From Astropecten irregularis (taxonomy: Eukaryota > Echinodermata > Asteroidea > Paxillosida > Astropectinidae): a stretch of 64,000 nt of DNA. The stretch covers positions 14,181,217-14,245,216 of the forward strand of contig OZ020246.1 of assembly GCA_963971285.1 (NCBI GenBank). Direction: 5' to 3'. Shown piece after piece: positions 27,301 to 62,276 of the stretch; position 1 is the first letter of the stretch, and each line of letters starts with the position of its first letter. A model generated the notes under the pieces. It did not search any database and was not told the origin of the DNA. It saw only the letters and a program-made list of their open reading frames with translations. Both the position numbers and the translations under genes were made by a program.

Positions 27301-28739
27301 TGGCCTAACTTGTTGTGTGTGTTACTGTTAGGCCTTATGTTATTTTTATTTCAAGGTTGTCACATCACACTGAAATTCGACATAACCTAGCGCCTAGGCC
27401 TATGTTTCAGGTTAAATTTTCAGGTTCTGCAGTTAAAAAAAAAAAAAAACCAGACAAGATTGTTAGCTCAAATATGTTTATAAATATCAGACTTGGATGT
27501 AGGATGTTAATGTTAATGTTTTTCTTTTAATTATGATAGAATTAGTTGAAATGCATTTTATGGAAAATGTGCTCTGTCAAAAAATGGTCAAACAATGACA
27601 GTCATGATGACTCGGCATTTTATATAGAGTGATGTGCAGGAATCAGATCCTTCCAAACTTGGTCATTTTCTTGTAAATCCTGTCACACCATGGAGCTGTA
27701 TATAGCTCTGTGGCCACCTTGACTGGGTTATGCACACAGTGAAAGCCCTGACAAGGGGCAAGTTCCATGTTAACACCAGATAAGTGATAACCACAAAATG
27801 CTGATGTCATTCTCAGTACATAATGTGTACTGTAGGCCTACCTGTAGGACAGACACAACACTATCAAACTGGCACGTGTACTTTGCCCTTTTGCCAGTAT
27901 AAAGATCAATATGCACACGGTCTTGCGACACAGTGCATACATCCGATTGTGTCCAGGACTCCCCGTGCTTGAGTCAATTACAGTATGTGCTTTGTACACA
28001 CAAGACACTGTGTATCGAGTCAGTAGCTCATGCCTTTGCTAGGTGATTGGTTCACTTTGACACCAGAATTTTACACGATTCGTGTCAATTCAAGAGCAGC
28101 AGTTTTCAGGTAAACTTGTATACTCAGTATACCGTACTAGTTATCTTTGGCAAAAGTTTACATTTACAGGAAGATACTTTGTACTTTTTTTCTAAGTTAG
28201 ACTTCATTGCATTAAGAGTGCATTTCAACGATGTCATGGATGTAGGCAAATGAAAACTTATGTTGAAGTATTATAAAACATGGAAGCCATACAGGTTTGA
28301 TATATAAACCCAGTCATATATCTCTCAAATGTCACCTAAGTATTACTAATACTTAGGTGTGCAAGGGTGCAATCCAAAAATGTTGAAGACAATGAGGTGC
28401 TTTTCATGCAAATTTTGTAAAACACTGGCAAGGTTGGAAATTTGTTTAATAGTCTCTACACACTACATCATACTTGCACAGATGTGGATAATATGCAACC
28501 AATATCTGTTGGTTTGGTTAAACTTACAGTCACTGCACTTGTACATGTAGTATGTAGTCAGTCACTTGACTTTGTATTGACCATAAGCCACATAATTACT
28601 AAAGTCCCAAATTTTCTTCAATTTTCTCTTGTTGTAGATCGATGACTTACATGTTTTTGTGAAGAAACTTGATGTAGCGTGCTTTAATCGGAACATTCTC
28701 CCATCACCTCATCAGAGACATTGTCTATTAGCAGCCATT

Positions 28740-38400: not shown

Positions 38401-41400
38401 TAACCGTTAACAAAAACAGTCTGCTATCGTAAGCGAAACATTTTTGCAAATATGGTAACGGATTCCATGAAATTGGGCCCTGGTCAAACAGTGGCAGGCC
38501 TTTGAGCCCCTACAACAACAAGGTCTGCTTACCATTGCTGACCTATCCTCGTCAAAGTGACCGTTCTTCTGAGCCTGCATTTCCTTGTACAGCTCGCCCC
38601 TTGGCGCGTACTCCAAGATCAGATAGACTCTGGTATCGTCATAGAAGTAGCCAAAGAGTCGCAGTATGTGGTCGTGTCTGCAAAAAAGAACATGTTTGGG
38701 AACAACACAAGATTGATTTTTTATACGGTAAACGAGCTTCGCAATTAGTTGATGAAATTAGGAGATATCTTTGACTTAACAAATGTTGCCAGCCCACTGA
38801 AAAATCAAGTTCAGAATTCAAAACAGCATTTTTTTAATCAAATATTTTATAACAATGGTACATGGCTTCTGACGGCCAAACAAAGATAATTGACTATCGA
38901 CTATTTGGGACACCACCAACGAAGGGCTGGATAGCTCTGTAATTGGTAGAGCACCTGTATTCAGGAGGTCACCGGTTCGAATCCCGCTTCAGTCAATTTT
39001 TTTTTGTTCACTTTCCAAATACTTGTCATTGAAAAGTGAACAAAAGATTTCCAGAAAACCGTACCGACGCTCTTACAAACTGAGCTATCCAGCCCTACGT
39101 TGGTGGTGTCCCAAACAGTTGGGAAAGCTTTATATGCACATTTTAAACTACTCTAGTCTAATGTTAGTTACTAATACTAATAAAGTGCTACATCATGTAA
39201 GTTCTTGTATTTTTCTATTTCATATTGTTATCTGACTGACACGGCTACCCATCAATTGCCAGTCAGAAGCCATGAAACCAATCACATACTGCTATATCTC
39301 AAGGACCGTTTTATCGATATACCTGAGCAACGGTACATGGGGGGGATCATTCAAAGAGAATGCGGAATAATCATGGTAGAGGCAGATGTCTGCCGGAAGA
39401 ATCACAAATATATTCAACCCCTGGAAAATCTATCACATAGATTAGCTAGCTGCTGCGAGACGCACGAAATTGACCAATCAACATCCTCCGTCATGATCCT
39501 GATGGAAATGTTCTCAAAATACATCTGATTGGCTGATGTGCCGCGTTGCTTAAAATTTGCATGCACGCATGTAACAGGCGTTCGTACGTAGTGGCACGAA
39601 GTATGTAGAACGTGTGATATTCTGACTAACCTAAGATGTGACTGGATCTCAATCTCTCGTCGCAGCTGATGTTCCACTCTAGCCTTGACCAGCTGGGATT
39701 TGAACAGCACCTTGAGGGCTACGATGAACTTGGACTTCTTCTCTCTGGCCAGGTACACATTGCCAAATTTACCCTTGCCGAGGGGCCGGCCGATTTCAAA
39801 ATCCTGAAGACACCACTTGTGCCTGTGGGACAACCAAAAAAAGCAAATAGGGAAAAGTTTAACAATTGGCCCTTGATCCTTTCAACTTGGGATCTTTCTG
39901 AATCCACAAAAAAGCCCCAAACCAATTGCTGTAACTGTGCTAAATGGTGAATTTCTCAATTTTATTGCCCAAGTTGTGTTGGCACATGTCATATGGCAGT
40001 ATCTGGTGTTCTCGGCACTTCTGCGAGTCCTGTGGCCATCAAAATCTGACAATGCTGTTTGGGCAAATTTCAGGTGGTGAGGATTTAAAGGTAGTATCAT
40101 TCTTAGAATACCAAAACAGAAATCTTCACAGATTTACCTACAACTTTACAGGGTCTAAAAGATGGTGATAGAAACAAACTGTTCACATTGTTTTACCTGA
40201 AATGCTGAACCAATTGATCAAAACAATTTTGAACTCTGGAAGATAAAAAATATGTGTGAACAGATTTCAAAATACAGTGACCGTTTTCTCAAAAAGTGGG
40301 CACCGGATGGGACTGGGCATTTTACAGATGACTGTTGCTGTATCCTTCTTTAATATTTTTGCCCATGAATCTGTATTCCTTTGACAGAAACCAAAGAAAG
40401 TATAAAATTACCTCTCAACACATGATTGCAGTCATGTTTGAATACACAGCTGGACATTAATTAAGCAAATTGGCTCATTGAGAAACACATCTCGTGGCCA
40501 GGAGATTCAAATAGGAAAGCAAGGGACATAGCGAGGACGGTTACTGCAGAGACTTACGCTGGATTGCATGACTGAGTTGATGGTGCCGTCACTGGAATAT
40601 TCTGTGCGTTGGAATCCATGAGCACCCGATTTTGCCCGGCCGAGCTCTGCTGTTGGGGCTGGGTACACTCCACTCTGTTCTCACTGTTGGGATCAGGGCG
40701 GTTCAACGCAACCCGCCCTGCAGGCTTCTGAGGGGCCGTTTGGTGGCCAGCTAATGGGCCCTGTCTGTCAGCCTGGCCCTTTCGGTTCTCGTGGGCATTC
40801 GATGCTCCGTTTGTCTGTAGCAAGATATAAATGGCACAACAACTGTCAGGATGCTGAACATAAACAATATACCTTCCATCCACTTTGCCGTGTTTTCAAG
40901 TCAAATGCAACTCCAAGAGCATCCTAAGCAGTACGTTATTCAAATTAAGAGACCCCAGAATTCAGGCCTCTGCCACTCACGCCTGAAATTATTTCATTAT
41001 TTTATTTGTTTAAAAGCTCAACATCCGAAAGGAGCGCCAAGGTTTAAACATGAGAGTAAAAACCTGTGGATATTGTAAACTTCACAGCATGTAGCCAAAA
41101 ATGATATTCTTCAGGATGATGTTAATACCACCAGGATGGAGAATGTCTTTTGTAATAGTTACCGACATTTTCCTTAGGCATAGTGTTGGTACTCACTTCC
41201 ATTCCCAGTTGCCTGTAGTTAGCCTGAGTACTATCACAATGAGATCTTCATTCTACTGTTTAACAAACTAATACATGTATCCAGGCAATCAGGCATGCAA
41301 CTTGGACACGAAAACGAGGAAATATCCATCTATATACTCAGGTATGCAACTCAGGCTTAACCAAAAGATGAGGAGGTTCCAATCTTTACAAGATTTTGTG

Positions 41401-44365: not shown

Positions 44366-47300
44366 ATGGACAATTTTAAGCTCGGATTTGCAACTAAAAA
44401 GTTAACGTTTTCACTGTTATTGGTGCTTTCGTTATGTTTTGTTCAATCATCATGCCTGAAGCCAAATATCATTATAATGATGATGGACGATGTAAGTACT
44501 TTTTTTAGATTTGGAATTCGATATGTGTGTTGTTTACATTAACGTTACAATTGAATTAAATACACAAATGCTTCCCAACCTTTTCATTTTGTTTAGGCCT
44601 ATATCGAACATAGCATTTAGAAGAATTTAGCAAAAATGCACAAAGTCAACACAAATAACTCGCTGTCGATCGTAGTTCAACAATTTATTTCCATGCATCG
44701 CAGAACCAAAAACATCAAAACGTCAAAAATGCAACTTGAAGCATAACAATTAACATATAGAACAAAAAAAATTGTACGTCACATTGATATTATGACTACA
44801 CTGATACAATGTTAATAAAGTGAAAGTCGGCCAGGGGGCGAGTTGGCCAGGAGGTGAGTTGGTTTGGGGCGAGTCGATCAGGAGGCGAGTTGGTAAGGGG
44901 CGAGTCGGTCAGGAGGCGAGTTGGTTTGGGTTTGAGTCGGTCAGGAGGCAAGTTGGTAAAGGGCGAGTCGGTGAGAGGCGAGTTGACCTGTTACCCAAAT
45001 AGGCCTGCCTACCTAGACAAATGAATACCAATCATAACCAAAGCATAAAACCAATGATGTGACTGTGCAATGTAACTAAAAAATGTAAATGTGTATTTGT
45101 TTCGGACGTAAGATAAATACAATTTTCAGGGCACTAGTTCTTGTAGTGAAAGAGTCCAAGCCCAAGTGGGCCTCAAGGCAACAATTAAAAACAGGTGGAG
45201 AATAGCGCCCCATGCACTAGTTGCGATGATCGTAACGCTAGGTCTGACATGGGGACTGGGACCTTAGGTCCCCATGTCAGACCTAGGGTTACGATCATCG
45301 CAACTACCCATGCACCATCTTAATACTTGCATCATGTTCTTGTCCACATTTGTCATTAAGCCTTTGATAAATATCCTGCTAGTGCTATATCAAAACGCGT
45401 CAGGAACTCCAAGCATTTTATATAAGGTAATTCAGGTAATTATTTTGGCTGATGAGCAGTTTGCAGCAGTTTATTAAGTACTTGTAAGCTCCCTGTTGCT
45501 TTGTTTTATATCACCTTAATTTTGTGGTCGTGTTGGTACTAAAGGCAGCGCTTTGAGGTTGTACTTAGGTTTTACGTTAGGTGCTCTTATAACTAGCTAT
45601 TACGTGTATATTCTTTATCAATCAATTAATCAATAATAATGATTACTAATAATGATTACTAATTGAACAGCTGGCTGGAATGCTATTGGCTGACTGAATA
45701 TTTTTGTCTCACTTTTATGGAGCAGATGGGCTGGGGTGATTTAGGCATCTTCGGCCAGCCGGCTAAAGAGACACCTCACCTAGACCAGATGGCAGCCGAG
45801 GGAGTGCTCTTGCCAGACTTCTACTCTGCTAACCCTCTCTGCTCACCCGGTAAGCCTATTTCATGGAGCTGCTTAAAGGGAGCTTACAGGATTTGCAAGG
45901 CCTCCAAAAACTGTTATTGAGTTTAAGACAGAAAATGGACTCAACAGTTTGTACAGTGCAAACAGTCACCATGGGAAGTCTTGGTTCATCAGATGCTGGT
46001 TTTTTTTTCAAGGAAATCAAGATTTAGTGTCTTTTCCAAAGATTGTTCGTCCGAACGATTTTTGGAACAAACGTAAAGGACACTCTCACTTGAGTTCTTT
46101 TAGTTTATCCCTTTTCACTCAAGGTATGAAGATGGTGCTGGTAGAAACATACCGTTAAAATATTTCCACCTGAAATGCTGTATTTATCCAGAAATTAGTC
46201 AAACAAAGACCGAAAACAGTTTTGATCTCGAGGTATGATTAAAACCATTCTTCGTGTTTTATAAGAAAAATTGAGTCAGGTTTTTGCTATTTTCTCGTGA
46301 CTCAGATGTCCGATTGAGCTCAAATTTGCACAGGTTTATTATTTTATGTACAGTTGTACACTGTACTTGTTTGATCAGACAAAGTATGAGTTAAGCTTGT
46401 TCGATATCCAGTTTTGGGCATATCGAAATATCGTGAAGAAAATATCGCGATATTCGATATTATCGTGGTGACGTCATCGTTTTCCTTTCTTAACTTTTTC
46501 ATTATGTAAGCATGCACGGCGACCGATCGAAACAAGATCTCCAAAAAAATATCCTCCCAAAGTACCGTAAAATGCATTTTCCTGACCAACTAAATCTTAC
46601 TTGAATTTCGGCCGATTATTTTGTCCATTTGGCCAAGTAGAAACACACTTTTACGAACTTCATCTGAAAATATATCGTGCAAAAACCTTCCGAAAGCGAC
46701 GATCACTTTGGAGAAGACGTAAACAGTCAGCACGCTGTCTGGAAATTTCCATAACTAGTACCCAAGCCCAACGTAATAGCCACGATAATTATCGTGCACT
46801 TAGCGAATGTATCAGATCTTACTCCATGTAGTCTGGAATTATTGCGCCCAAACCGTGAGTCCAATACGCTGCTAGCGTCAGTCATGTTGGCCGGAAGCGG
46901 CAAGCATACATGGCACAATGCAATTGTGTGCAACGCGGCATGCACGTGCTCACAGCATAGTGAAGTCAGCATGGTCAGCGCACGTGTAGGCTTCAGTCAT
47001 GAAGACCGGAAGTGCAGCGTACGCTAGTACAGTAGCACACGCAGCGTCGTTCTGGACCGCATGCGGATTACTGTTTCGGGTGCAGATTTGCACGGTAAGA
47101 AATCTGCTTTTAGCGTCGCAACCAGCTACGAATTTTGCAGTAATCTATTTGTTTTGGTCGTCGCAAAAAGTGTGTCAAGCTTTACATGTACGTCCGCTCA
47201 TGAGCTACTCTGATTTTTTGGTATAAAGTTGCGCTAGCATATAAATATCGCGATACTGCCGATATTCCCGATGTTGCCGATATTTCGATATTTCTTTCGG

Positions 47301-50300
47301 GGCCCGATACGATTTTCGATATGAAAAAAATATCGCGATATCGATAAATATCGTCATATCGAACAAGCTTAGTATGAGTGCTGTCATGTGACCTTTACCA
47401 ATCATGTGTATTGTACCTTTAAGCACCAAAATGTGCTTTAATAAGCACCAAACATTTTGGTAAATAAAATCAGTACCGGTATACGTACCAGCCAAAACTC
47501 CTAATGTTATGCTCGGAGGTGGGTTAGGGTATTCACCAAATTGCCAGTGATATACTGTATCATGGCTGGATTTCACAAAACACTTATTAGATCAATCAAT
47601 CTTAACATGAATTGTCTCTATCATTGCATTGTTACATCACATAGCAAGAGCCGCTCTACTGACTGGCCGACTGCCGATCCGAAACGGCTTCTACACAACC
47701 AACGAGCACGCTCGCAACGCTTATGTGCCACAGTTTCTTGATGGGGGCATCCAAGATCATGAAATCCTGCTTCCGGAACTTCTGAGGACAGCCGGCTACA
47801 AGAGCAAGATCATTGGGAAATGGTGAGATAATGCTGTCAGTGACGGTGTTTTGTTTGTTTCATCTGGTTTTACAATTGAAAATTGTTCTACTCAAATCTG
47901 TTTGCATGTATGTATTTGGTCATCACTCTTGGTGTTTCTGTGTAATATTCAGATTTCATTTGTACACTTCATATTATTTGTACGGTAACAGGTCAACTCG
48001 TATCTTCGCCGACTTGCACCTTCGAATAAGACAACTCGTAACGTCGCACCAAGTCAACTCGTACCGTCGCACCAAGTCAACTCGTACCGTTGGTCATAGA
48101 GGAATAAAACACATATAAGTTTTATTCCTCGATGCTTTGGTTAAGGCAACCCAAGGTACAAGTTGGCGAAAGTACGAGTTGTTGAAGGTGCGAGTTGGCA
48201 AATTTATGAGTTGGCAAAGGTTTGAGTTGGGAAAAGGCACGAGTTGACTCGGAAGCATTTGTACATCTACAACAACACACACTAAAGCATATTATGTCAA
48301 TGATGGATTGTTCATAATGCAGCAAGGTACTGGCCCAATACTACAAGACTCAAAAACCATGGTCTAGTACTTGTTAATGTTATTGTCCCATGAAATCTTC
48401 AGGTTTTGAACAAGTGGAAAAATATAATATTTCAATTGCTTGACATGAATACCACTTACTGTAAATATTTTTCCTCATTTCTCATTGTTGCAGTTTTCTG
48501 CCCAAAATTGGCATTTGAAATTTGACCCTTACTCTTTAACCCACAGGCATTTGGGCCACCAATCTCAATATTTGCCCCTGCAACATGGCTTCGATGAGTT
48601 CTTTGGCTCGCCAAATTGTCATTTTGGGCCTTACAATGACAAGAGTACGCCCAACATTCCGGTGTTCAGGGACAGCGAAATGGCCGGCCGCTACTACGAA
48701 GATTTTGTCATCACTAAGAATGGCGAGTCCAACTTAACACAGATTTACATCAAGGTAAATAAGAACGATAATTCTAAAGTAGGATTTGAAGCTTTGCATG
48801 GTGGAAGTCACATAATAAGGAAAGGTTTCTCACTGGTTCTTTTCAGATCCACACATCTATAAAGAGATTATACATGGTGTCTCCGCAAACCTTTCCTTAT
48901 AACGATCATTCTGTCAGCGATGCAAAAAGTCAGGTGTTTACGTTTTGACATATGTTCACATTTGGTACTCAAGTAGCATCATTAATTTGATCATTCCAAC
49001 AGGTTTTGGCCAGGATTTTGTGATTGCGTGACCTGTAACATTACCAAAATTATATATCCATTAGTCCATTACTATTCCAACATTGTGTATAATTTTGTAG
49101 AAATTGATATTTGTTGAAATTTGCTGAGAATTGTTGTGTCGGGGCATAACTGAAGAATCCATTTTCAACCAATCAGATAAACCTTGCAGCTTTTTTTATG
49201 TAGATATTGCCAAACACAATAGAGAGCCAATCAAAGGTGAGGGCTTTCAGAAAGGAGAGAGAAAAACAGAGCAATTAGGAAGATCTGTTTGCAAGAAAAG
49301 TATTAACATTACGTTTAAATTGAGAGAGGTTATATCCCGTTGGAAAACAGGATGAGGGTAGGGAATTTCAGAGTGAGGCAGTGCGTGGAAAGAAACTTGA
49401 AGAATATCTTGAGGTATTTGAATTCGGGAGAAAGAATGGGCTATATAGCTGATGGTTAAACAAAAAATTCATTTGGAGCCCTTAAAACATTTGCATGAAT
49501 GTTCTTTTTTGTGTGTATGTTGTGTTTATGGCATCATTTAGGAGGCAATTACTTTCATTGAGAGCCAGCAGAAAGCCAACAACCCGTTCATTCTGTACTG
49601 GGTGCCCGACGCAACCCACACACCATTATATGCCTCGGCCGGCTTTCTGGGTACCAGCCAGCGAGGGCGGTATGGAGACGCCGTCAGAGAACTGGACCAT
49701 GGCGTGGGTTTGATCTTGGATAAGCTGAGGGAACTAGGCATCCAAAAGAACACATTTGCCTTTTTCACATCTGACAATGGTGGGGCTCTTTATGCCAGTG
49801 AAAATGGTGAGGGCCGATTGTGGCGATCGATTGGTATTTTTTGTGGAGTGCCGAGTCAAACGCTTGCATGAACCCATCCTTAAATGTTCCTCAGCCTTCC
49901 CTTGTGTTATTTTGTTGGTTTCCTAAAATCTTTAACTCATCGCAACATCTCATGTCATTAGGAGTCACTCAGCTTCATTGAGAGCCAGCAGAAAGCCAAC
50001 AACCCATTCCTTCTGTACTGGGTGCCCGACGCTACCCACGTACCATTATATGCCTCGGCCGGCTTTCTGGGTACCAGCCAGCGCGGGCTTTACGGAGATG
50101 CTGTCAGCGAACTGGACCATGGCGTGGGCATGATCTTGGATAAGCTGAGGGAACTAGGCATCCAAAAGAACACATTTGCCTTTTTCACATCTGACAATGG
50201 TGGCGCTCTAGTGTCTAGATATAGGGGTGAGCTTTGTGCATGATATTAATGTGCCTGTGCGGTCAAAAAACTGGGCTCTTACTTTTGATTTCGTCTGTCC

Positions 50301-53300
50301 ATCCTTGCTCTGCCTCAACCAGCAAATCCCAATCTTCTTCCTCGTGTATAACACCGTTAACGTCGCTCCTTTCTCTAATCTTACAAAGCTCTCTGCAGAC
50401 AAACAAGGAAAGGCAAAGATAATGAGAGAATCGTCATCATTATTAAAGATTCAGAGATTATGCCTCTTTAAAGGTACTATCATACTTTTGGTCACAGATT
50501 TGCCTATTACTTACAGGGTATAAAGATGGTGATGGTAGAACATACTGCTTTTCTGCCTGAAATACTGTATTTATCAAGAAAAGGGTAAACAAAAATGACC
50601 AAAAAACAATTTTGATCTTTTTTTTTTACTAATTTCTGGATATAAATACAGAATTTCAATATTTTTACGATATGTTTCTACCAGCACCATCTTCATACCC
50701 TGAACGTTAAATCTGTGAACATTTCTGTTTGGGTATGTGACCAATTCTGTACCTTTAATGCTAGGGGCTGTCTAAGACGAGTTGATTTGTCACGATGTTG
50801 TGTTTTCTCTCATTCTGTAGGAAGCGCTAGAGTTCATTACAAAACAAACCCAAGCTGCCGACCCATTTTTCCTGTACTGGGCGCCTGATTCTGCCCATCG
50901 GCCCCACTACGCCTCCAAAGGGTACCTGGGTACGAGCCAGCGTGGCCTGTATGGGGACGTTGTGCGAGAATTAGACAACGGAGTTGGCCAGATACTAGCG
51001 CTTCTTCAAAACCTCGGGGCCGACCAAAATTCATTTGTGTTTTTCACATCTGATAACGGAGCGCCTCTTAATCCCAAAACAGACTGTAAGTCAAACAGAA
51101 GCTGAAAGTGGCATGCAATTTACTCTCAAAATGAAGGTCCTGTTTGTTTCAGGTTTGCGATCAGTGATCTTGCAGATCCACGTGCCTTGCAGGGTACGCT
51201 AAAATGGGATCCAGATCACCAGGATCACTGATCTCGTGCATGAAACAAACAGGCCCTAAACTGCTGATAATTTGGGGGAAAGGGACATCTATATGTGATT
51301 GAACAAGGACTTAAGGTCGAGGCTTGAGCATTACCTTACATGCTGTAAGAGTGCTCTAGACTGTCTGACTATCTATTAGCCTGATACTTGGGCATTCTAT
51401 GTTATCATATATCATCATTTTGGGGAACAAGTCAGAAAAAGTTATACTTGTTGCCATACGTAAGGCACCAGTGGAGTGATTGGAACTTGTTTTTATGGCA
51501 TCTGACAGGCTCCCATAGCCCTTAGCAATATGTTGGTCCTATTGAATGGCGTGACAGCTCAGATGGTGTAGCACCAACTTAATTGGTATAACCACCAATC
51601 CTAACAAGTTGTAATTTATAATCACCAAATAACCACAAGAGAAACTGACTGAATGTTTAAGTTATTGAAAGGAAGAGATACTAACTGAAGCGGGAGTCAA
51701 ACCGGCGACCTCCTGAATACCGTACAGGGGGTCTTTCAACTGAGCTATCCAGCCCTACCGTTGGTGGTGTCCCTAATAGTCAATTATCTCTATTCGTTTG
51801 TCAGTCAGAAGCCATGAAACCACGCACATACTGCTATATTCCAGGGATCATGTTATCGATACAAGCAGCAATGCTGCAACCTGAGAACAGTACACGGGGG
51901 ATCAGTCAAAGAGGATATGGCTTTTTATTCAATACAATTGTCAAATAACCACAAGGGAAACTGACTGAATTTTAAGTCATTGAAAGGTGAACAAAGAAAA
52001 ATTAACTGAAGCGGGATTTGGACCGGCGACCTCCTGAATACCATATAATCCAGCCCTACGTTGGTGCTGTCCCAAATCATCTTTGTTTGTTTGGCAGTCA
52101 GACGCTGTTCATTTAGTTTCTTTCTAAACTCATCTGACAAGCATCTGGATAAAGTTTGGCTGGACTTTGTTGAATTGACAGCCATCTTCGTTTATAACAT
52201 GTGCTATGTTAACACCATTTAACTGGTTGTGACACAAATTTAATCAGTGACCCTACTCTCTACATGTAGTCTGACTCCAATAACATTTTCCAGCTACAGT
52301 TTTGTAGGTATGCTTACTTGAAAATGGCTAGAAAGGCCAAAATACTTCATATTTTTGCACATTCATTACTATATACATGGATTACCTGTACTTATGTATA
52401 ATACAGTGCATATGTTAATGCATATTTACAGCTTTTATCCTTGAAATCTGATGTTTAAATTATCATAACTCCAAAAGTATATTAGCGCCAAATCCAAATT
52501 TTTCTTGCGATGTTACTTACATGTCAAGCTTACATTTTAAAAAAAATTCCGCATTTTGAAAAATATGCATTTTTTTAATCAAGGTCAAAGTTCAAATTTT
52601 TACGTAATTTTTTTGTCGTACTTGAAAAAATTTTGGTTTTATTTTACAAAATGAAGGCCATTATAAGAGCTTTAGAATGATGGAAACATGTATCTCTGTA
52701 GGTTCTTTACTTCTGGAGATATGGCTGTTTGAATGTGACAGGTTGTGCTAATTAGTTAAAAGTTAGTTAACCCGTATCTCAAAAAGTAATGGACCAAATT
52801 ACATAAAATTTTGGTTCTGGTGGTTTCTCATGGAGGCCAATAAGCACACCAAATTTCATTGAAATCCGAGTCGGTCGGGTTCCAAAGCGCGTTGAATTGA
52901 CACGGAATGACCCTGTAATTAACCCGAGACTGACTGGAGTCACAATTTCCGGTGACTTGTCTCATATGTCACATATATTTCTCAGTAATTGTTCTCAGGC
53001 TTACATGAGATGAGCCAGTTGTTGTAATTAACCGGAGACTGACTGGTGTCACAATATCTGGTTACTTGTCTCATATGTCACATATATTTAGCTGTTTCGC
53101 ATGCAGCAGAACAGCTTTTTATTTTTTTTTCTACTTTTTATTTTTTTTCACTTTTTTCCCATTGACATAACATGGGGTCTTTCTACAAGTCACTTCTACC
53201 CTTATGCCAATTCCAATCAACTTCATACTTGACACATAGTTAGACCACCACCCCAAATAGATTGCTGAACAATTTCGTCATCATGACGTCATCACGTGCA

Positions 53301-56300
53301 CCATGATGTCATCATAAAAGTGAACATTTCAGGGCTCTTTATCTCCAGAACTGCAAGTCCGATGCAACTCAAACTTGGTATGCAAGTATACAGGGACATG
53401 TTATAGACAAATATTGCGGTCATGTGTCTTATTATTAAATTTTTGGACCTATTCTTTATATCTCGTGAACGACAAATTGTATTTTCGAAATTCTTTCGGC
53501 AAAATGTTTGTTAGGCAATAGGCACATGCCACAAAATACCAAAAAGTTGTGATGTCATGATGACGTCATCAAAAAGCCGATTTTTAGATTCACATATAAG
53601 GGAATATCCGATGGTGATGAAACTTGGTGGGTAGGTAGGGAATGGTACTAGTATTCAAAATCTGAAGTGACGTCACGATGACGTCATCAACTGATTTTAT
53701 ATTGATTTTTGAATAATTAATTTTGAATTTTATTTCCAGAAACACATACAAGTGAATATCCGATCGTAGTGGAATGTGGTGGACTGGATAGGTAGGGAAT
53801 GGTACTAGTATTCCAAATGTGAAATGACGTCACAATGACGTCATCGCCTATTTTTTAATTGATTTATTTGTATAATTAATGTTGCCATTTACAGTCAATA
53901 TAACACAAAACACGGGTTGTGGAACTTTTTGGACCGCTGATATGGCTATCTATAGTAGTCGGCTAATATTGTGTACACGTGAACGGAGCACAACGAGCTA
54001 GAAAACCAATCATTTTGCTGTTTCCACCGCCATGATAAGCACTACCATACATACTATGCTCACTGGCCTATACAGTAGACTCTGCCATTTCTCACGGCCG
54101 TCGTGTGTATGTACATGTATACGTGTATATGATGGACGAGTGTCGACGTTGCTCATAATATTGTTTACGTTGTTAGGCTATTTCTCTGTACTGGGCCAGT
54201 TGTATACATGTTTAGTTTTTTTTATTTTATAAAACATACGCGAAACAGCTCAGTGTTTGTTTCCAACAAACACAGGTCTAGTTCTAATTGTTCTTACATG
54301 AGATGAACCAGTTGTTGTAATTAACCCGAGACTGACTAATGTCACAATGTCGGGTGACTTGTCTCATATGTCACATATATATTTCTAATTGTTCTTACAT
54401 GAGATGAGCCAGTTGTTGTAATTAACCCGAGACTGACTAATGTCACAATGTCGGGTGACTTGTCTCATATGTCACATATATATTTCTAATTGTTCTTACA
54501 TGAGATGAGCCAGTTGTTGTAATATAAGGTGACCATATTTTGTTCAGATGATCCGGGGACAGTGATCCGTGTCCTGGGGGAGGGGTATAATTTTGACAAA
54601 ATTTTTGAATCCAGATGGTGCCAACATGCAAAATTGTGGCATATATGGACATCTTGTCCAGTTGACATGAGTGGGTTACATACTTACATTGTCTTAGGTG
54701 GTTTTCTTCGCATACTTCTCTGAAGAATGGGTCTTCTTCAGCACAACATTTGTGTTCAGTCTTTTTTATTTAGGACAATTAGAATTTTCGGGGGCATTTT
54801 GTCGAATAGGGGAAAATTTTCGGGGAAAATTTTTCATCGGGGACAGCACTGTCAAATCGGGGACTGTCCCCGGAAATCGGGGACGTCTGGTTACCTTATT
54901 GTAATAACCCGAGACTGACTGGAGTCACAATGTCTGGTGACTTGTCCCATATGTCAGTTTCTTGCTGTTGTGAATGTCTGAAAGAGAGAGCTTTGTATAA
55001 TTTCTAACATATGAAAAAGCAATTCTTCTGTGAGTTAAAGGTACTATCATACTTTGGTGAAGTTGATAGAACAGCTTCAATCTGTCCATAGTTTGAATTT
55101 TCATGGAATAAAAACAAACCTGTGAAATTTTCAGCTCAATTGATCATTGAGGAACAGTACAAAACAGCAACAACAACAAAAAACGTTTCAATTGTTACGC
55201 GAAATTGTAAGGTACATACGTGTAACTATGAGGTGAGGTTTTGATCTTGGAGATCAAAACTGTACTCATTTCTGGATAAATACAGCTTTTCAGGAGGAAA
55301 CATTTTAACACTATGTTTGTACCAGATCCATCTTTGTACCCTGTAAGTTATAGGTAAATCTGTGAACATTTCTGTTTTGGGTTTTCTTTCCAAAGTATGA
55401 GAGTACCTTTAAAAGGCATGTTTGTCAATAACCCTAGGAGTGAGCTTGCCCTGCCTGTTGTTCATCCCTTCTCCTACTTCATATCCCTTCTCATGAATGT
55501 CTGCCACTATTCAACTATTCATCCCTCTCTTGTCATACTAAATACCAACCTCAATTGATTCATTTTACATTGTTCTTACCTCATCTTGTTTTAGTGCACA
55601 TTAATCTTCTGTAAAAGAGCCTTGTTATTCTTATTAACTATTGCAAATCTTTCGACACTACCAGCCATTTACACAAGTCGTATAAACATTCACTGTAACT
55701 TCATTCCTAATGCTAGGAGTCCACTGGGCCGGCGCCAGTTGGTGCCAGTTCGCGCCAAAGATTATGTAATTGGCGGGTAGTGGCGTAACGAAACATTTTT
55801 AAATTTTCTTGCCGCCAAATTCAATTTTTTGCGCCGTTATGGGCCATCACGAACCAGTTGGGAGGCAGTTTGAGCCACTGCATGCCACTAGGCACCTTAT
55901 TGGTGACACTAGGCGCCACAGCAAATTGCATTGGCGCGAACTGGCACCAACTGGCGCCGGCCCAGTGGACTCCTAGCATAATGCAAACATTTGTGGGAAG
56001 CATAATTGTGGTTTTTGGCAAATGAAGTTTTGTTTAATATGCTTAGCTTTTGTGCTGCAAGTTAACCTTGCATCCATCAAAATCTGATGCTTGTGGCATT
56101 TTCTGCTCTGGAGAAATTGGAGATACGAAAGAGAACCTTTGTTAAACGGCAGGCATGCAACTTTTCCTAGGATCAGCTGATTTCCTAATTTTCCACTTCA
56201 CTCTTATGCCATCGAAAAGTGAAAAACACTGTTCAAAGTATGGTCAAGATTGGAATTTCCTCTTTTTTTGTCAAGTCCAAGTTGCATGCCTGTAAACGGG

Positions 56301-59300
56301 CTCACCCACTGCTAGCATGTAAAGTATTAAGCACACTGCTATTGATGCGATTAGCTTTGATGTTAGGCATTGTTTTTGATTTCATGAATTATGGTGCTCC
56401 CTTTCCAAAACTAGCCCAAGGGTTAAAGGCAGTTGTGTTTTATTTCCTCTTCATGCTAGGCGTAGAGGAGTGCAAGAATATGAATCAATTACTAATATTT
56501 AGACACACAAGTCCGAAAGACAAATCAGGCATAGACCATACAAGATAAAAACTCTTGAAAAAAAGCTGCCATATCCAGAGAAAAGTGCGAAATCATCCCC
56601 AGAATTTCTATAGGCGCTGCAATTTGTATACCTTTCTATCACGCCTACAAGTAATTCTCATGTCCTTATTATTCTAGGTGGAAGTAATGGGCCCTTTCTG
56701 TGTGGCAAAGAGACAACGTTCGAAGGCGGTATGCGGGAACCAGCTATTGCATGGTGGCCGGGTACCATCAAACCAGGCCAGGTATAATTCCAGTCTCTTT
56801 GATTCATGAACTTGTTGGTCAGTGAATAGATTTGAATGACTTGCTTATGTTCAATTAGCATTCCACATTAAAGGCATAATAGGCCTACATGATTGGTAAA
56901 GGTCACACACAGTAGTGTAGACACGTCCTCAGACCTGGGGGGGGGGGGTTGATCGTGTAGCTGGGTCGTACTTCCATATACGTTTGTGCACAAAATAATG
57001 TTATATATATAAATAAAAAGTGAAAACCTGGGGGAGGGGGGTTACAATTTTCTCTGTGGCTTGAATCATTCACTTAAGTTAAGGAAACTTTTTTGTTTGT
57101 TTTTTCTTTCAAAAATGAACAACAAAAAATTGACTGGAGCGGCAACCAGTGACCTCTGGAATACCATACCGGTGCTCGTACCAATTGAGCTATCCAGCCC
57201 TATGTTGGTGGTGTCCCTAATAGTAAATTATCTTGATTCATTTGGCAGTCAGACGCCATGAAACCACACACATACCACTATATCCCAAGGATCATTTTAT
57301 CAATATGCGCAGCAATGCTACAACCTGAGAAACAGAACATGGGGGATCACTCAAAGAGGATGCGGCTTTTTAATAAATTCAGTCAATTTGATGTATATAT
57401 TTGTTTTTGTTTTTGCTCGAAACGTTGATTTCTGTAGGGATTCCAATAATTTTATGAATGATGTTGAATGTAATTTTATTTTTCTTTTAATATCAAAAGG
57501 TTTCCCATCAATTGGGTAGTATCATGGACCTGTTCACAACCGCCCTCAAAATAGCCGGAATAGATCCGCCCTCTGATCGCATCATTGACGGCACAGACCT
57601 TCTCCCCAGCCTGATCAATGGCACCGTCAACAAGAGTAAGCCGATCTTCTATTACCGTGGCAACGAGATGATGGCAATAAGGATTGGCTTGTACAAGGCC
57701 CATTACTGGACCTGGACCAACTCTCTGGAGGAGTTCAATAGGGTAAGACTGCCATAATGTACAGATGCTAGTTTGTTTTTTCAAGGAATCAAGGTTTTTC
57801 TTAAAGGTAATATCATCATGTACTTTGGTTTTTGTCAAAAATATCAAGAATGATACAGTAAACAGTCATCTGTGAAATTCCCAGTCACATGCAGTGCTGA
57901 CTTTTTGTGAAAACAGTGAAGCATTTAAAAAAAAAATATTTTCACCGTTATTTTTGATCTTCTGCAGATCAAAATTGTTTTTTGGTCATTTGGTTGTATA
58001 CCGGTACTCTTTTCTGGATAAATTATACAACATTTCAGACGGAAAAATGTTAACGGTATGTTTTTCCCATTACCACCTTTTATACCCTGTAAAGTATACA
58101 TGTAGGTAAATCTGTGTAGATCTCCGTTTCATTATGCTTCGAAAGTATGATACATTGTAGATCCTTTAAAGGGGTTTAAATAGCGCTCCGCACTTACGCT
58201 AAAAATAGCTCCGGATCTCAGAAAAACATTGCAACCATGCACGTGCGTGGGTGTGCGCGTCCATGTACACTACGCGTGTGAGACAATGTTTGTCTGACAG
58301 CCGGGGATTTTGTGACGTCATTAGTGCGGAGCGCTATTGGACAGTCCAGCCATATTGTCTTCTTCTTCTTGTGTATGTGTTGCAATTCCTTGGAATTCCG
58401 GCCTTGAAGAGAGATATAGCAAGAGCAGTTGGTTCAATACATGATAAGAGTTTTCTATAGATTGAAGGTACTATCATACTTTGGTAAAGTTGATAGAACA
58501 GCTGTATTCTATTCATAATTTTGTCATGAAATAAAAACAAACCTGTGAAATTTTCAGCTCAATTGATCATTGGAAACAGTAGAAAACAGCAAAAAAAATG
58601 CAATTGTTACTTGTAATTGTAAGGTAATTGTAATTGTGAGGTTTTGATCTCGGAGATCAAAACTGCTTCTGGTCTTGGTTTGACTGATTTCTGGATAAAT
58701 GCACCATTTCAGGCGGAAAGATTTTAACAGTATGTTTCTACCATCACCATCTTCATACCCTGTAAGTTATACGTAAATCTGTGAACATTTCTGTTTGGGT
58801 TTCCTACCGAACTATGATAGGGCCTACTACCTTTGACATCAATTTCTGCCCATTCTATCGTCCTCATTACTGAACCTCATTTCCCTATTAAATTTATTTC
58901 AGGGTGTAAATTTCTGCAGAGGAGAAGCTGTGACTGGAGTTATGACCCACGAACAAACAAACCACACTGATTCCCCATTGCTGTTTCACCTTGGCCGCGA
59001 TCCCGGCGAGAAATACCCTATCAAGTGAGTTAACGTGTGAGACCGGTTTTGGAAGAGCTTTCTGTAGGGTATCATTCAAATTATGTCTTTCTTCTGTTGA
59101 GTACTGACTACTGAGTGTCAGAGAGGTCTTGTACATGTAAAACACATGAGCACTGCACTTGTGCAGTGCTGTTGCCTAGTGGTCTGGCGTGTCGTACTCA
59201 AGGTCTGTGGTTAATCTACATATTGTGGGATCGAATCCACCCATGGTCTAGTGGTGCTTGCATCCTTGGGCAAGACGCTTTGTCACATATTTGCTCCTCT

Positions 59301-62276
59301 TCACCCAGGTGTAAATGGGTGCTTCGATACTAGGCACTTTCTCACACACCAAAAAAGTGCGGCTATTTGGGCGCGCTCCAAATCACGACCCAAATAGTCG
59401 CACTTTTTTTGGTGTGTGAGAACGTGCCTACTATGACACTTGCACTTTCCTGAGACTTATGCTCTTTTCAAAACCATGTACAGTATTAGGTTTTGGCTCA
59501 GGTTTCATATTACATCATCTTAAATCTGAAAAGACGTATGCTTTATCTTCGAAGATAAAGCTTAAATTTATGCTTTATTCAAAGCAAAGTATGTACTTTG
59601 ATAGCAAAAGTGTCTATTTTGTTGATACATTGAACTTTAAAAAAGATTTAATTTAGTGAAAGGGAAATGAGCCAGAATGCCATGGGCTCGATTTCATCAA
59701 ACCTTGATGAGTTGTCTGCATATATTATATTGTGACATCACACTTTGCTTAGCAATTAAAGGGAGCATATAGGATATGCAAGGCCTCAAAAAAAAAATGA
59801 TTGAGTTTGAGACAAAATATGGACCCAACAAATCGTAAACAGTGCAAACAGTCACCATGGGAAATCTTGGTTCATCAGATGCTGGGTTTTTCGAGCAAAT
59901 CAAGATTTAGTGTCTTTTCCAAAGATCGTTCGTCCGAACGATTTTTGGAACAAACATAAAAGTTAACAATTCTTCATGTTTTAGAAGAAAAATCGAGTCG
60001 GGTTTTTGCTATTTTCTCGTTACTCAGACGTCCGATTGAGCTCAAATTTTCACAGGTTTATTATTTCATGTACATGTTTGATCAGACAAAGTATGAGTGT
60101 AGTCCTGTGACCTTTTCCAATTATGTATTGTACCTTTAAGATTGGTTCATGATTTAAAGGTAGTATCAGACTTTGGTTTTTGTCAAAGAAGTACAGATTC
60201 GTGGGCAAAAATATCAAGGAAGATACAGTAAAAGTAATCTGTGAAAATTTCAGTCCTATACGTTTCCCACTTTTTGAGAAAACAGCGAAAAACGGCCACA
60301 GTATTTCTTAAGTGTTTTCTCTTTTATTTTTGATCTTTTAAAAGATCAAAAAGATTTTCGGTCGTTGTTTTACTAATTTCTGGATAAATACACCATTTCA
60401 GGCGGAAACATTTTAACGGTATGTTTCTAACACCACCATCTTCATTCCCTGTAAGTTACCGGTATACGTAAATCTGTAAACATTTCTGTTTTGGTCTCTT
60501 ACCAAAGTATGATACTACCTTTAAGATTGGTCTTCGTGCTTGGTGACATCTTGTTTCACAATGGCCCTTAACTTCTTTCCTGACTTTCATTTTTTGTTGT
60601 TTCTTGATTAGAAATTCCAGTGCGGAATACAAAGCCGTGATACCAGGGATAGTGGCAGTCGTGGACAGTCACAAGAAGAATCTTATTCCAGGACAGCCGC
60701 AGCTTAACATGTGTGATATGGCAGTACAGGTAGGCATGACTGTTTTTGCAAACAATTTGTTTATTAGTTTCAAAAGTCAGGGATGAGATTTCTCAGATTA
60801 AAATCTGATTTCAGACTTTATTGTTTTGGATTATTGATTTTTTTTTCCTCACAGGCTCCGTACAAAAGTATAAGAGATTTTCATATTTCAGACTTGTTAT
60901 GCTCCCTGTCAGCTGTTTTCAGACATTTTTATCATTGCTTAATCTCATCCCTGAAAAGTGAAGCAGATTTAACTTCATTTTTGCCCAAAATGAATTGATA
61001 CTTTGATAGTTATGAATTCATATGGCTAGATATTTGGCACGTGGGTATCTGATGCAAAATTTACATACAAGTACATGAATTTAAGGCCATAGGCCTGTAT
61101 GCAATTCAGTTTTACAGGCAATTTCAGTTGGTGGCAACAAAGCATACCACATACAAAAAGGAAAGTTTGGGTTGCACAAAATTCAATTGAATGACAATAA
61201 GGGCTATTTAGTTGATCTGCAAATCTCCCCTCGGCATGGCCGGGTCATTGACTACGGTATGTAAGACCCATTGTAATGGCAGCAAAATTGACCTTTCCAG
61301 ATAGTGAGTAATTCCTCAGTGATGCATGAATGGATTGCTTTGAATGCCCAGAGAGATATTGAATGCATTCTACTAAAAAAAAAAAAAAAAAAGATCGAAA
61401 AGCTGAAAACATACATTTTATTTTCATAATTTTGTTTATATGGGTATCAGGTTATTTGTTGGGGATGGGGGGGACACACTGCGTACTGTAAACCGTTAGT
61501 CAAATTGTGAATTGAGAGGACCGAAAATGAGAGGATGATATTTTTAACCTTTACTCTTAAATCCCAATAACTTTTAGTTGTGTATAGTAAGTTGAATTAA
61601 AACACAAGGATCCCTTATTTAAATCACCAAATAACCACTAGGGAAACTGACTGGATTAATGTTAAAGGGCATGTACAACATTGGTTAACAAACCAAAACA
61701 GAAATCTTCACAGATTTATGTACATGTATAACTTACATGGTATAAAGGCGGTAATTGTAGAAACATGATATATGAATTTTTTGTCTGCCTGAAATGCTGT
61801 ACATGTATTTATCCAGAACAGAGTAAAACCAAACACCAAAACATTTTGATCTTGGCAAGATAAAAAAGGAGACAGCTATTCCCACACAATTTGGCGCAAC
61901 AATTGCAACAGGTTTTCGTCGTTTTCGACTGTTTCCAATGATCAACTGAGCAGAAAATGTCACAAGTTTTTTTTAATTCTGTGGCAAATCAAATTATGAG
62001 CATCCTGCAGTTGCTGTGGCACTTTTACCAATGTTGTACATGCCCTTTAAGTCTTTGAAAGGTGAACAAAGAAAATATTGACTGGAGCGGGATCATTTTA
62101 ATATTTAACTTTAAACCTGATTCTTACCTGCTATGGCATCATAATGTATGCTCCTTTATTGATGTTGGTTGTTGTTGTTTTTTATGTAGAGTTGGGCACC
62201 CCCAGGCTGTGAGAAGCTAGGTGATTGTCTTCCTGTTCCAAAGTCTCATCCATACAAGTGCACCTGGCCACACTAG
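44366..62276 (+). CDS. GALNS: N-acetylgalactosamine-6-sulfatase (GALNS-like), complete
   Basis: Exons: 44366-44491, 45726-45849, 47645-47822, 48547-48754, one of three alternative 265-nt exons, 56678-56781, 57500-57742, 58903-59024, 60612-60729, 62190-62276. With any one alternative exon the CDS is 1575 nt, 524 aa, against 522 for human GALNS. A signal peptide ([18 protein letters not shown]) precedes the metal-binding Asp41-Asp42. The sulfatase motif is C81-S-P-A-R85, split by intron 2, with Cys81 expected to become formylglycine. Lys142/His144 (GKWHLGH), His238, Asp290/Asn291 (TSDNG) and Lys311 ([10 protein letters not shown]) match the catalytic set. The C-terminus has [10 protein letters not shown] and ends in CTWPH. 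The enzyme removes 6-sulfate from GalNAc or galactose in chondroitin and keratan sulfates in lysosomes; the invertebrate substrate is inferred. An in-frame upstream ATG (44291) would bury the signal peptide, so 44366 is preferred. Introns carry eight TTAA-MITEs. Confidence 0.95.
44820..44985. repeat. GGCGAGTTGGTCAGGA minisatellite
   Basis: About ten 16-17-bp units with alternating GCGAGTTGG and GCGAGTCGG cores, in GALNS intron 1. Related in core motif to the arrays at 42719 and 47993. Confidence 0.8.
45218..45306. mobile_element. 89-bp foldback with perfect 9-bp target duplication
   Basis: Nearly the whole element is one stem (left end TAGTTGCGATGATCGTAACG, right end CGATCATCGCAACTA) with an 11-nt loop. 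It is flanked on both sides by CCCATGCAC (45209-45217 and 45307-45315). The 9-bp duplication points to a MULE-like or related transposase. Confidence 0.85.
45873..47422 (+). mobile_element. TTAA-MITE (family B) split by a hAT-like insertion
   Basis: Left end TTAAAGGGAGCTTACAGGAT, right end TTGTACCTTTAA. It matches 59756-60139 except for the 980-bp insertion at 46392-47371. It lies in GALNS intron 2. Confidence 0.85.
46392..47371. mobile_element. 980-bp non-autonomous hAT-like element
   Basis: Ends TAAGCTTGTTCGATAT and ATATCGAACAAGCTTA are perfect inverted repeats. The flanks are a perfect 8-bp duplication, GTATGAGT (46384-46391 and 47372-47379). Subterminal zones are rich in ATATCGCGATAT-type motifs on both sides. 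No transposase ORF. Confidence 0.88.
47993..48250. repeat. foldback with CAACTCGTACC / CGAGTTGG arms
   Basis: Left arm: repeated CAACTCGTACCGTCGCACC. Right arm: repeated GTGCGAGTTGGCAAA, its approximate complement. The centre is GAGGAATAAAAC, 8 nt, GTTTTATTCCTC, a perfect 12-bp stem. It lies in GALNS intron 3. Confidence 0.75.
49542..49806 (+). CDS. GALNS: GALNS alternative exon 5A
   Basis: 265 nt, acceptor CATTTAG, donor GTGAGG, phase 0 in and 1 out. Encodes residues 213-300, from EAITFIESQ to ALYASEN, with active-site His238 in [13 protein letters not shown] and Asp290/Asn291 in TSDNGG. About 13 residues differ from exon 5B. Confidence 0.93.
49962..50226 (+). CDS. GALNS: GALNS alternative exon 5B
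   Basis: 265 nt, acceptor TCATTAG, donor GTGAGC, same phases as 5A and only 155 bp downstream. It starts ESLSFIESQ and carries [19 protein letters not shown] and a different tail (ALVSRYR). It shares a run of over 60 identical nucleotides with 5A, including silent sites. Confidence 0.93.
50468..50758 (+). mobile_element. TTAA-MITE (family A variant) between exons 5B and 5C
   Basis: TTAA-bounded; left end AAGGTACTATCATACTTTTG, right end CCAATTCTGTACCTTTAA, with an internal deletion compared with other copies. It fills most of the 5B-5C intron. Confidence 0.8.
50821..51085 (+). CDS. GALNS: GALNS alternative exon 5C
   Basis: 265 nt, acceptor TCTGTAG, donor GTAAGT, same phases. It starts EALEFITKQ and carries [15 protein letters not shown] and [17 protein letters not shown]. 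Active-site His, Asp and Asn are kept. It is diverged from 5A/5B and is closer to human GALNS at several positions ([22 protein letters not shown]). Joining to exon 6 creates Cys301 instead of Gly301. Confidence 0.93.
51148..51257. mobile_element. palindromic GGCCTGTTTG element
   Basis: Left CCTGTTTGTTTCAGGTTTGC and right GCATGAAACAAACAGGCCC are inverted, with mirrored ATCAGTGATC motifs inside. Related to 42015-42150. Confidence 0.7.
51640..51925 (-). mobile_element. tRNA-related SINE-like repeat
   Basis: The minus strand carries GGCTGGATAGCTCAGTTG and GGTTTGACTCCCGC, preceded by a roughly 170-bp 5' module ending GGGACACCACCAACG. Confidence 0.7.
51940..52110 (-). mobile_element. truncated tRNA-related SINE-like repeat
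   Basis: Same family, lacking the 5' module. It contains the pre-insertion site GAATTTTAAGTCATTGAAAG that corresponds to the MITE insertion point at 61662-62050. Confidence 0.7.
53091..54250 (+). mobile_element. AGCTGTTTCGC element with CRE-like sites
   Basis: Begins AGCTGTTTCGCATGCAGC and ends GCGAAACAGCT in inverted orientation. The interior has several TGACGTCA motifs (near 53285, 53565, 53670, 53683, 53826, 53839) and CATGATGTCATC variants. No ORF. It shares most of its left half with 63325-64000. Confidence 0.7.
54525..54898. mobile_element. 374-bp non-autonomous hAT-like element
   Basis: Ends TAAGGTGACCA and TGGTTACCTTA are inverted (one mismatch). Perfect 8-bp duplication TTGTAATA at 54517-54524 and 54899-54906. 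Inserted in the 101-bp satellite. Confidence 0.85.
55035..55412 (+). mobile_element. TTAA-MITE (family A variant)
   Basis: TTAA at both ends, left AAGGTACTATCATACTTTGG, right CCAAAGTATGAGAGTACCTT. It shares its GTTGATAGAACAGCT segment with the 58463 copy. Confidence 0.8.
55710..55979. mobile_element. 270-bp foldback with a 49-bp perfect terminal palindrome
   Basis: Starts ATGCTAGGAGTCCACTGGGC and ends GCCCAGTGGACTCCTAGCAT; the identity of the arms runs 49 bp without mismatch. GGCGCCAGTTGG-type motifs recur inside. GC-rich against an AT-rich background. Confidence 0.85.
57060..57385 (-). mobile_element. tRNA-related SINE-like repeat
   Basis: The minus strand has GGCTGGATAGCTCAATTGGT; the B-box is decayed (CACTGGTTGCCGC). 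The 5' module is complete. It ends about 115 bp before GALNS exon 7. Confidence 0.7.
57801..58169 (+). mobile_element. TTAA-MITE (family A)
   Basis: TTAA-bounded; left end AAGGTAATATCATCATGTAC, body with the GATC...GATC core and the TACCC boundary motif. It lies in GALNS intron 7. Confidence 0.75.
58463..58834 (+). mobile_element. TTAA-MITE-like element flanked by TTGA
   Basis: Left TTGAAGGTACTATCATACTT, right CTACTACCTTTGA. Both flanks read TTGA rather than TTAA, so either the target was TTGA or both sites mutated. Confidence 0.7.
59165..59330 (+). mobile_element. tRNA-derived SINE
   Basis: Head with CCTAGTGGTCTGGCGTGTCG (A-box-like) and GGGATCGAATCC (B-box-like), then CTTGGGCAAGACGCTTTGTC and CCAGGTGTAAATGGGT, a tail type common in metazoan SINEs. 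It is followed immediately by the palindrome at 59331. Confidence 0.75.
59331..59430. repeat. 100-bp palindrome (foldback)
   Basis: Left TAGGCACTTTCTCACACACC and right GGTGTGTGAGAACGTGCCTA pair with one or two mismatches; the stem continues through AAAAAAGTGCGNCTATTTGG. Loop about 14 nt. Confidence 0.85.
59756..60139 (+). mobile_element. TTAA-MITE (family B)
   Basis: TTAA-bounded; left AAGGGAGCATATAGGATATG, right TTGTACCTTTAA. Uninterrupted counterpart of 45873-47422. Confidence 0.8.
60154..60524 (+). mobile_element. TTAA-MITE (family A), complete
   Basis: TTAA-bounded; left AAGGTAGTATCAGACTTTGG, right CCAAAGTATGATACTACCTT. Starts 15 bp after the family-B copy ends. Confidence 0.85.
61610..62095 (-). 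mobile_element. SINE-like repeat split by a TTAA-MITE
   Basis: Flanks of the MITE match one continuous SINE-like copy (compare 51950-52010): CACTAGGGAAACTGACTGGA before and GTCTTTGAAAGGTGAACAAA after it. Confidence 0.75.
61662..62050 (-). mobile_element. TTAA-MITE (family A variant) with visible target duplication
   Basis: Left AGGGCATGTACAACATTGGT and right ACCAATGTTGTACATGCCCT are perfect 20-bp inverted repeats, flanked by TTAA at 61662-61665 and 62047-62050. Body in reverse family-A orientation. Confidence 0.9.

Follow-up and report, generated by a model that had tools for sequence, protein, structure and literature searches.

The window analysed here is a stretch of 64,000 nucleotides (nt) from the sea star Astropecten irregularis (assembly GCA_963971285.1, contig OZ020246.1, positions 14,181,217 to 14,245,216), and it contains a complete GALNS gene on the plus strand at 44366-62276, counted from the first letter of the window. 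Loss of this sulfatase causes human Morquio A disease. The gene has ten exons and encodes 524 amino acids whichever version of exon 5 is used; the three versions, named 5A, 5B and 5C, lie in tandem between exons 4 and 6. Judged by sequence comparison, the three copies probably form an old cluster of mutually exclusive exons in asteroid GALNS that exchanges part of the active-site wall, and we give this reading a probability of roughly 0.78. The features of the gene are as follows.

44366-44491, plus strand: GALNS exon 1, with the start codon, the N-terminal leader and the metal-binding Asp-Asp (from the open reading frame, the donor and the alignment to 4FDI)
45726-45849, plus strand: GALNS exon 2, ending inside the C-x-P-x-R formylglycine motif (from the gene model and the 4FDI alignment)
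47645-47822, plus strand: GALNS exon 3
48547-48754, plus strand: GALNS exon 4, ending in phase 0
49542-49806, plus strand: alternative exon 5A, A-like tail GGALYASEN, 265 nt, phase 0 to 1, donor ATG/GTGAGG, PF00884 at E 1.4e-16
49807-49961, plus strand: intron 5A-5B, 155 nt, with branch-point-like yTnAy sites starting 30, 26 and 13 nt before 5B
49962-50226, plus strand: alternative exon 5B, B-like tail GGALVSRYR, 265 nt, phase 0 to 1, donor GGG/GTGAGC, PF00884 at E 5.7e-16
50227-50820, plus strand: intron 5B-5C, 594 nt, holding one copy of a multi-copy repeat (about 50460-50765)
50821-51085, plus strand: alternative exon 5C, type C, including DNGAPLN, 265 nt, phase 0 to 1, donor ACT/GTAAGT, PF00884 at E 3.8e-17
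56678-56781, plus strand: GALNS exon 6, with the common acceptor for 5A, 5B and 5C and the sulfate-binding Lys
57500-57742, plus strand: GALNS exon 7
58903-59024, plus strand: GALNS exon 8
60612-60729, plus strand: GALNS exon 9
62190-62276, plus strand: GALNS exon 10, with the stop codon

Among solved structures, the top match of isoform A was human GALNS (4FDI, E 1.9e-238, residues 32-524; 4FDI/4FDJ represent the same enzyme family), and the next-best match, arylsulfatase A (E 2e-74), was far behind. With exon 5 set aside, the protein shares 87.1% of its residues with that of Patiria miniata, 86.6% with that of Acanthaster planci and 84.9% with that of Asterias rubens, and identity to the 28 other compared proteins is at most 76.5%, which by itself places the source in or close to the sea stars. 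Human GALNS is known with a single version of the exon-5 segment, divided over two exons which together likewise measure 265 nt.

An earlier reading of the same DNA, made from the letters alone (the sequence-only reading), had described three tandem 265-nt exons of equal phases (0 to 1) with intact splice sites, and all of this was confirmed. Each copy has AG directly upstream and GT directly downstream, stays open over 88 codons with no insertion or deletion, and by itself matches the Pfam family Sulfatase, PF00884. The identity between 5A and 5B is 88.3% in nucleotides and 85.2% in amino acids, that between 5A and 5C is 60.4% and 59.1%, and that between 5B and 5C is 58.5% and 59.1%. The donors of 5A, 5B and 5C scored 9.13, 7.86 and 6.72 with a score matrix, inside the span of 4.22-9.16 given by the eight other donors of the gene. 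Pyrimidines occupy 16 of the 20 positions before the acceptor of 5C and 12 of 20 before each of 5A and 5B. The first and last introns of the cluster are 787 nt (4-5A) and 5592 nt (5C-6) long. When the peptides of every exon were searched against the window with tblastn (E up to 1), strong scores were obtained only for the three exon-5 copies, and the best off-target match of any exon peptide was a 32-residue match of exon 1 (41%, E 4e-4); further copies of exon 5, or a comparable duplication of another exon, were thus not seen in the window at strong scores.

The reading frame permits one copy at a time. Recomputation gave the same result as had been claimed, i.e., joining 5A to 5B leads to a stop after six codons, and joining 5A or 5B to 5C leads to a stop after 22. 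Skipping of exon 5 and inclusion of all three copies are both out of frame because 265 leaves a remainder of one when divided by three. In the mechanism that we propose, the spliceosome would pick one of the three copies and join it to exon 4 on one side and exon 6 on the other, the products would be three complete sulfatases which differ only in an 88-residue segment forming part of the active-site wall, and transcripts with none, two or three copies, being out of frame, would be discarded or would yield no enzyme. The frame logic, the catalytic residues and the echinoderm assignment agree with the mutually exclusive splicing of a GALNS catalytic segment that had been put forward, and the splicing choice in A. 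irregularis, with its exclusivity, is what these features predict.

The exchanged segment has catalytic content. Ten active-site residues of human GALNS are given in Table 2 of PMC4014121, and their human numbers are used here. The segment contains the counterparts of His236, which binds sulfate, and of Asp288 and Asn289, which are metal ligands, and alignment to human GALNS bore out that 5A, 5B and 5C alike keep this active-site His, Asp and Asn. The remaining seven listed residues are kept in the common exons. All three isoforms have the formylglycine motif CSPAR together with counterparts of D39, D40, R83, K140, H142, H236, D288, N289 and K310, and are predicted to have GALNS 6-sulfatase activity on 6-sulfated N-acetylgalactosamine (GalNAc-6-S) or 6-sulfated galactose (Gal-6-S).

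For comparison with other species, three protein searches gave 7985, 7964 and 263 matches, and the best 120 of each were taken, which made 212 different proteins. The database was clustered at 90% identity, so that normally one isoform per gene is visible. In the labels of this set, the two type C proteins are P0004 and P0006, Acanthaster planci isoform X5 is P0014, and the hemichordate pairs are P0027/P0135 and P0035/P0136.

Type C is recognised by three residues, counted in the 209 of 210 non-C proteins that covered enough of the segment. An Ala stands directly before the catalytic His (in none of the 209, 203 of which have Thr), a His stands at human position 239, three residues after the catalytic His (in 3 of the 209, all from hemichordates), and a Pro stands at human position 292, the second residue after Asp-Asn-Gly (in none of the 209, 206 of which have Ala). 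All three are present in 5C of the window and in two database proteins, Strongylocentrotus purpuratus "isoform X2" and "isoform X2" of the crinoid Anneissia japonica, which means that the signature occurs in three echinoderm classes. A simpler motif count, DNG-Ala-Pro, found the same two X2 isoforms and no others among the 208 readable of the 212 proteins. The residues named earlier as variant, i.e., those around the His (DATHTP, DATHVP, DSAHRP) and in the loop before exon 6, are only partly the consistent ones, which are the Ala, His239 and Pro292.

A search of other echinoderms had been suggested as a check, and at the protein level it gave a C-like segment in an echinoid and a crinoid isoform X2 and A-like or B-like segments in their relatives: the tails are A-like in Lytechinus pictus X1 and Diadema X1 and B-like in the crinoid Antedon X1. 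With one representative per 90% cluster, every echinoderm database protein has one exon-5 version, except Acanthaster X5, which has a 21-residue stretch without evident similarity in place of exon 5 and might be misannotated or a non-catalytic isoform. S. purpuratus X2 and L. pictus X1 are 92.3% identical outside exon 5 and 58.6% identical inside it, and none of 435 non-C protein pairs lay lower relative to the line fitted to them. The pairs S. purpuratus X2/Diadema X1 and Anneissia X2/Antedon X1 deviate in the same direction and more weakly, with 10 of the 435 pairs lower in each case. Exon 5 is variable anyway, with 78% identity between the A-like proteins of L. pictus and Diadema and 73-74% among asteroids, and exon 1 is less conserved still, at 57% and 43% for the two key pairs. 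For both the urchin pair and the crinoid pair, the identity falls at the exon 4/5 junction and recovers at the 5/6 junction, and such a break and recovery at exon junctions is the expected outcome of alternative exons of one gene. As the "isoform" names of several species show, part of this variation is already present in the database as unremarked annotation.

Several observations count against an old, regulated and exclusive exon choice, and the first of them concern 5C itself. Its last base produces a Cys at the junction, where Gly is usual, and among 34 positions conserved at 97% or more, 5C deviates at five (two of which are signature residues), whereas 5A and 5B deviate at none. Tandem exon duplicates can be neutral, and one working exon might have been left with two silent relics, unused or decaying; the odd Cys codon, the five changed positions and the lowest donor score of the three would suit such a history of 5C. 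On the other side, all three copies have kept their catalytic residues and an intact 88-codon frame, and the type C signature is common to proteins of two other classes. Between 5A and 5B, synonymous change exceeds amino-acid change per site (Ka 0.092, Ks 0.261; in the core codons Ka 0.036, Ks 0.172), i.e., the two are under purifying selection. The differences between 5A and 5C fall on codon positions 1, 2 and 3 in the numbers 30, 21 and 53, and the synonymous sites of 5C are saturated against both 5A and 5B. Furthermore, the representatives of other asteroids are A-like in Patiria X1 (tail GGATYARVQ) and B-like in Acanthaster X1 (GGALVSKFN) and Asterias X2 (GAALVGKFH). Decay to relics is on balance very improbable.

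The similarity of 5A and 5B could also raise the suspicion of an assembly artefact or a haplotype duplication. The two copies share an identical run of 73 nt; when the mismatches were shuffled 20000 times, a run of this length arose 17 times. Their DNA match pairs 49534-49789 with 49955-50209 at 91.8% and extends from 8 nt upstream of the exon to 17 nt before its 3' edge, and when a longer match of the flanks of 5A and 5B was looked for, none was found. An assembly duplicate is hardly credible because the copies are only 88% identical, their flanks do not align and their synonymous divergence is 0.26, and because 5C is only about 60% identical to them. Five of the 13 residue differences between 5A and 5B are the final five, which are wholly different (YASEN and VSRYR). 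Together with the tails of the other asteroids, this suggests that A and B are an older pair which was homogenised, probably by gene conversion, in this lineage, with the last five codons still different; the weak points of this suggestion are that the tail has only nine residues and that comparable tails occur in other phyla.

The second group of adverse observations concerns the common origin of type C. By raw exon-5 identity, the type C versions are not mutually closest: for 5C of the window, Glandiceps X2 (70.5%) ranks before Anneissia X2 (69.3%) and S. purpuratus X2 (65.5%), and S. purpuratus X2 in turn has its nearest neighbours in Glandiceps X2 (67.8%), Oculina and the sponge Halichondria (66.7% each), followed by 5C of the window and Anneissia X2 (65.5% each). 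The type C segment of S. purpuratus is also one residue shorter. The idea of a common type C, whose age is judged from a single echinoid and a single crinoid protein, is accordingly argued from the junction pattern, the signature, trees and simulations rather than from raw identity. The trees were made from 31 of the 212 proteins and the three window versions; most vertebrates and Acanthaster X5, which lacks most of the segment, were left out. In the exon-5 tree, 5C of the window (labelled Window_C) groups with Anneissia X2 (support 79.8/96) and S. purpuratus X2 (85.1/92). In the tree of the rest of the protein, the four asteroids are together (100/100), as are S. purpuratus with L. pictus (98.5/100) and Anneissia with Antedon (100/100), and these other exons are in conflict with the grouping seen for exon 5, which they reject (delta log-likelihood, lnL, 281; approximately unbiased (AU) test, p 2.4e-5).

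With the 88 exon-5 sites, the AU test excluded a position of Window_C within the asteroids (p 0.027). However, it did not exclude the constraint of all classes (0.098), S. purpuratus X2 with the echinoids (0.22) or Anneissia X2 with Antedon (0.084), and the Shimodaira-Hasegawa (SH) test excluded no constraint. These results would agree with a young, lineage-specific cluster and independent C-like segments in the urchin and the crinoid, since the two tests leave most non-C groupings standing, raw identity does not set the C group apart, and convergent tandem exon events are documented in animals (PMC9741552). Against independent origins stand the three shared residues, two of which are absent from 209 other proteins, and parametric bootstraps with 18 sequences. 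In these, the all-class constraint cost 23.0 lnL, a value reached in 0 of 100 simulations (highest 8.6), and the single constraints cost 19.8, 11.0 (S. purpuratus) and 17.2 lnL, each reached in 0 of 60 simulations. A control clade taken as true, echinoderm monophyly without the C sequences, costs 8.2 lnL (not simulated), near the 11.0 for S. purpuratus; this cost shows that the model is imperfect, and the S. purpuratus figure by itself should carry little weight. Separate origins of the C-like segments are improbable, though less so than decay to relics. Under the common origin that we prefer, the separation of C from A/B most likely predates the divergence of the living echinoderm classes, and C would have been kept in at least one echinoid and at least one crinoid.

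The third group concerns the splicing choice. In the 90%-clustered database, no gene of another species was ever seen with two versions next to each other. Intron length, branch-point-like sites and inverted repeats were examined, and nothing that explains how double inclusion is prevented was found among them. Steric exclusion between 5A and 5B is not indicated by the 155-nt intron and its branch-point-like sites near 5B. Looping-out of 5C was considered for the inverted-repeat arms at 50467-50587 and 55263-55413, which flank it, and was given no weight because the same element occurs in many partial copies across the window. This repeated element measures about 300 bases, has inverted ends and is present at 50460-50765 and in many other places, with partial copies in both orientations, including the introns 5B-5C and 5C-6. 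The alternative splicing might then be stochastic instead of regulated, with the out-of-frame products removed by nonsense-mediated decay, which could possibly tune the enzyme level. For this variant of our reading it can be said that the frame rule by itself leaves just single-exon transcripts productive, that the 155-nt intron is not obviously too short for 5A-5B joining, and that no convincing system of docking and selector pairing was found among the inverted repeats examined. The occurrence of the type C signature in three classes suggests, on the contrary, the use of a specific product and not noise, and we consider an unregulated choice unlikely, while giving it more room than the other rivals.

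The crinoid type C protein was folded as a stand-in for the window isoforms. The model has a mean predicted local distance difference test (pLDDT) score of 84.5 and template modelling (TM) scores of 0.93/0.96 to 4FDI, and the protein is thus predicted to fold as GALNS. The loop after Asp-Asn has low confidence (60, 56 and 56 in the blocks of residues 281-310), and no claim about its shape is made for this reason.

The best-known examples of mutually exclusive exons are in ion channels, receptors and muscle proteins, and few enzymes are known to carry catalytic residues inside the exchanged exon. The closest precedent is the exon pair 6a/6e of coq-2, described in nematodes, other helminths, annelids and molluscs (PMC7434440). 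There too, homologous alternative exons of an enzyme are found, the choice rebuilds the core of the active site, and two near-substrate residues consistently separate the forms across distant species (PMC7434440). The exon swap of coq-2 can switch a substrate and alters the product made, and the choice of this polyprenyltransferase between quinone pathways has been proven by RNA-seq and mutants (PMC7434440), whereas the starfish GALNS is known from sequence. The exchanged part consists of two core helices in coq-2 (PMC7434440); in the starfish enzyme it is a segment that occurs in three versions and contains metal ligands and a His that binds sulfate. The tandem duplicated exon substitutions of human genes belong to the same class of event, with exons that replace each other and keep their key residues, and the main text of that report mentions neither GALNS nor a sulfatase (PMC9741552). 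OGDH, with exons 4a/4b, is likewise a metabolic enzyme with mutually exclusive exons (PMC7969005); in the starfish gene, the branch-point-like sites of the 155-nt intron are close to its 3' end, and the OGDH route is not indicated there. Searches of the open-licence PMC literature listed, by title and abstract opening, no paper on catalytic exons that are duplicated or alternative in GALNS or another echinoderm sulfatase. Tandem duplicated exons that replace each other are of a known kind; as far as these searches go, the enzyme, the three exon versions with catalytic residues and the apparent age are new.

By analogy with coq-2, and from the position and conservation of the changes, a functional difference between the versions may be expected. 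Its likely role would be to tune, by tissue or stage, the choice among 6-sulfated galactose or GalNAc ends as substrates, or the conditions under which the enzyme cleaves them. The locus offers three natural versions of part of the GALNS active-site wall together with a defined three-residue signature, which can be assayed directly, and if the types differ in substrate, it would be a natural experiment on sulfatase specificity and on the remodelling of sulfated glycans in echinoderms.

The origin of A and C may lie even deeper. In the exon-5 tree, three hemichordate proteins stand beside type C (83.2/90), with which they have the His at human position 239 in common, and forcing all echinoderm exon-5 sequences into one group gave an AU p of 0.050. 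The two hemichordate gene copies are 72.7% identical in exon 5 and 69.2% elsewhere in Glandiceps, and 65.9% and 67.2% in Ptychodera, i.e., they are not clearly more divergent in exon 5, and an origin of A and C before the split of echinoderms and hemichordates is a possibility only. Glandiceps and Ptychodera have two GALNS proteins each, the second of which has the type C His; the two genes of each species probably lie on one chromosome. A wider scenario would join these points: an echinoderm splicing switch of the catalytic wall of a lysosomal sulfatase, older than the living classes, in which type C is a distinct enzyme acting on a different sulfated glycan, perhaps of connective tissue or the jelly coat, and the second hemichordate gene is the same choice frozen into a separate gene. 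Taken as a whole, this scenario is speculative, and we hold it to be doubtful.

The formylglycine motif at the exon 2/3 junction (45726-45849 / 47645-47822) reads CSPAR. In the 212-protein set, 190 proteins have CSPSR, three have CSPAR (Patiria X1 and two Acanthaster models) and 19 do not match the pattern; the Asterias motif is CSPSR. CSPAR looks like a change of some sea stars within the site recognised by the formylglycine-generating enzyme.

The other features of the window are as follows.

3061-3474, minus strand: CUB domain exon (PF00431)
3586-5085, minus strand: long open frame built from short repeats with much RDTDPRDKNKET, probably a minisatellite and not a gene
20538-21137, plus strand: reading frame matching PF15472 (DUF4638)
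28638-29576, plus strand: reading frame that ends in a FAM210A/B-like domain
36545-36859 and 39414-39881, minus strand: protein kinase exons (PF00069), resembling Aurora kinase

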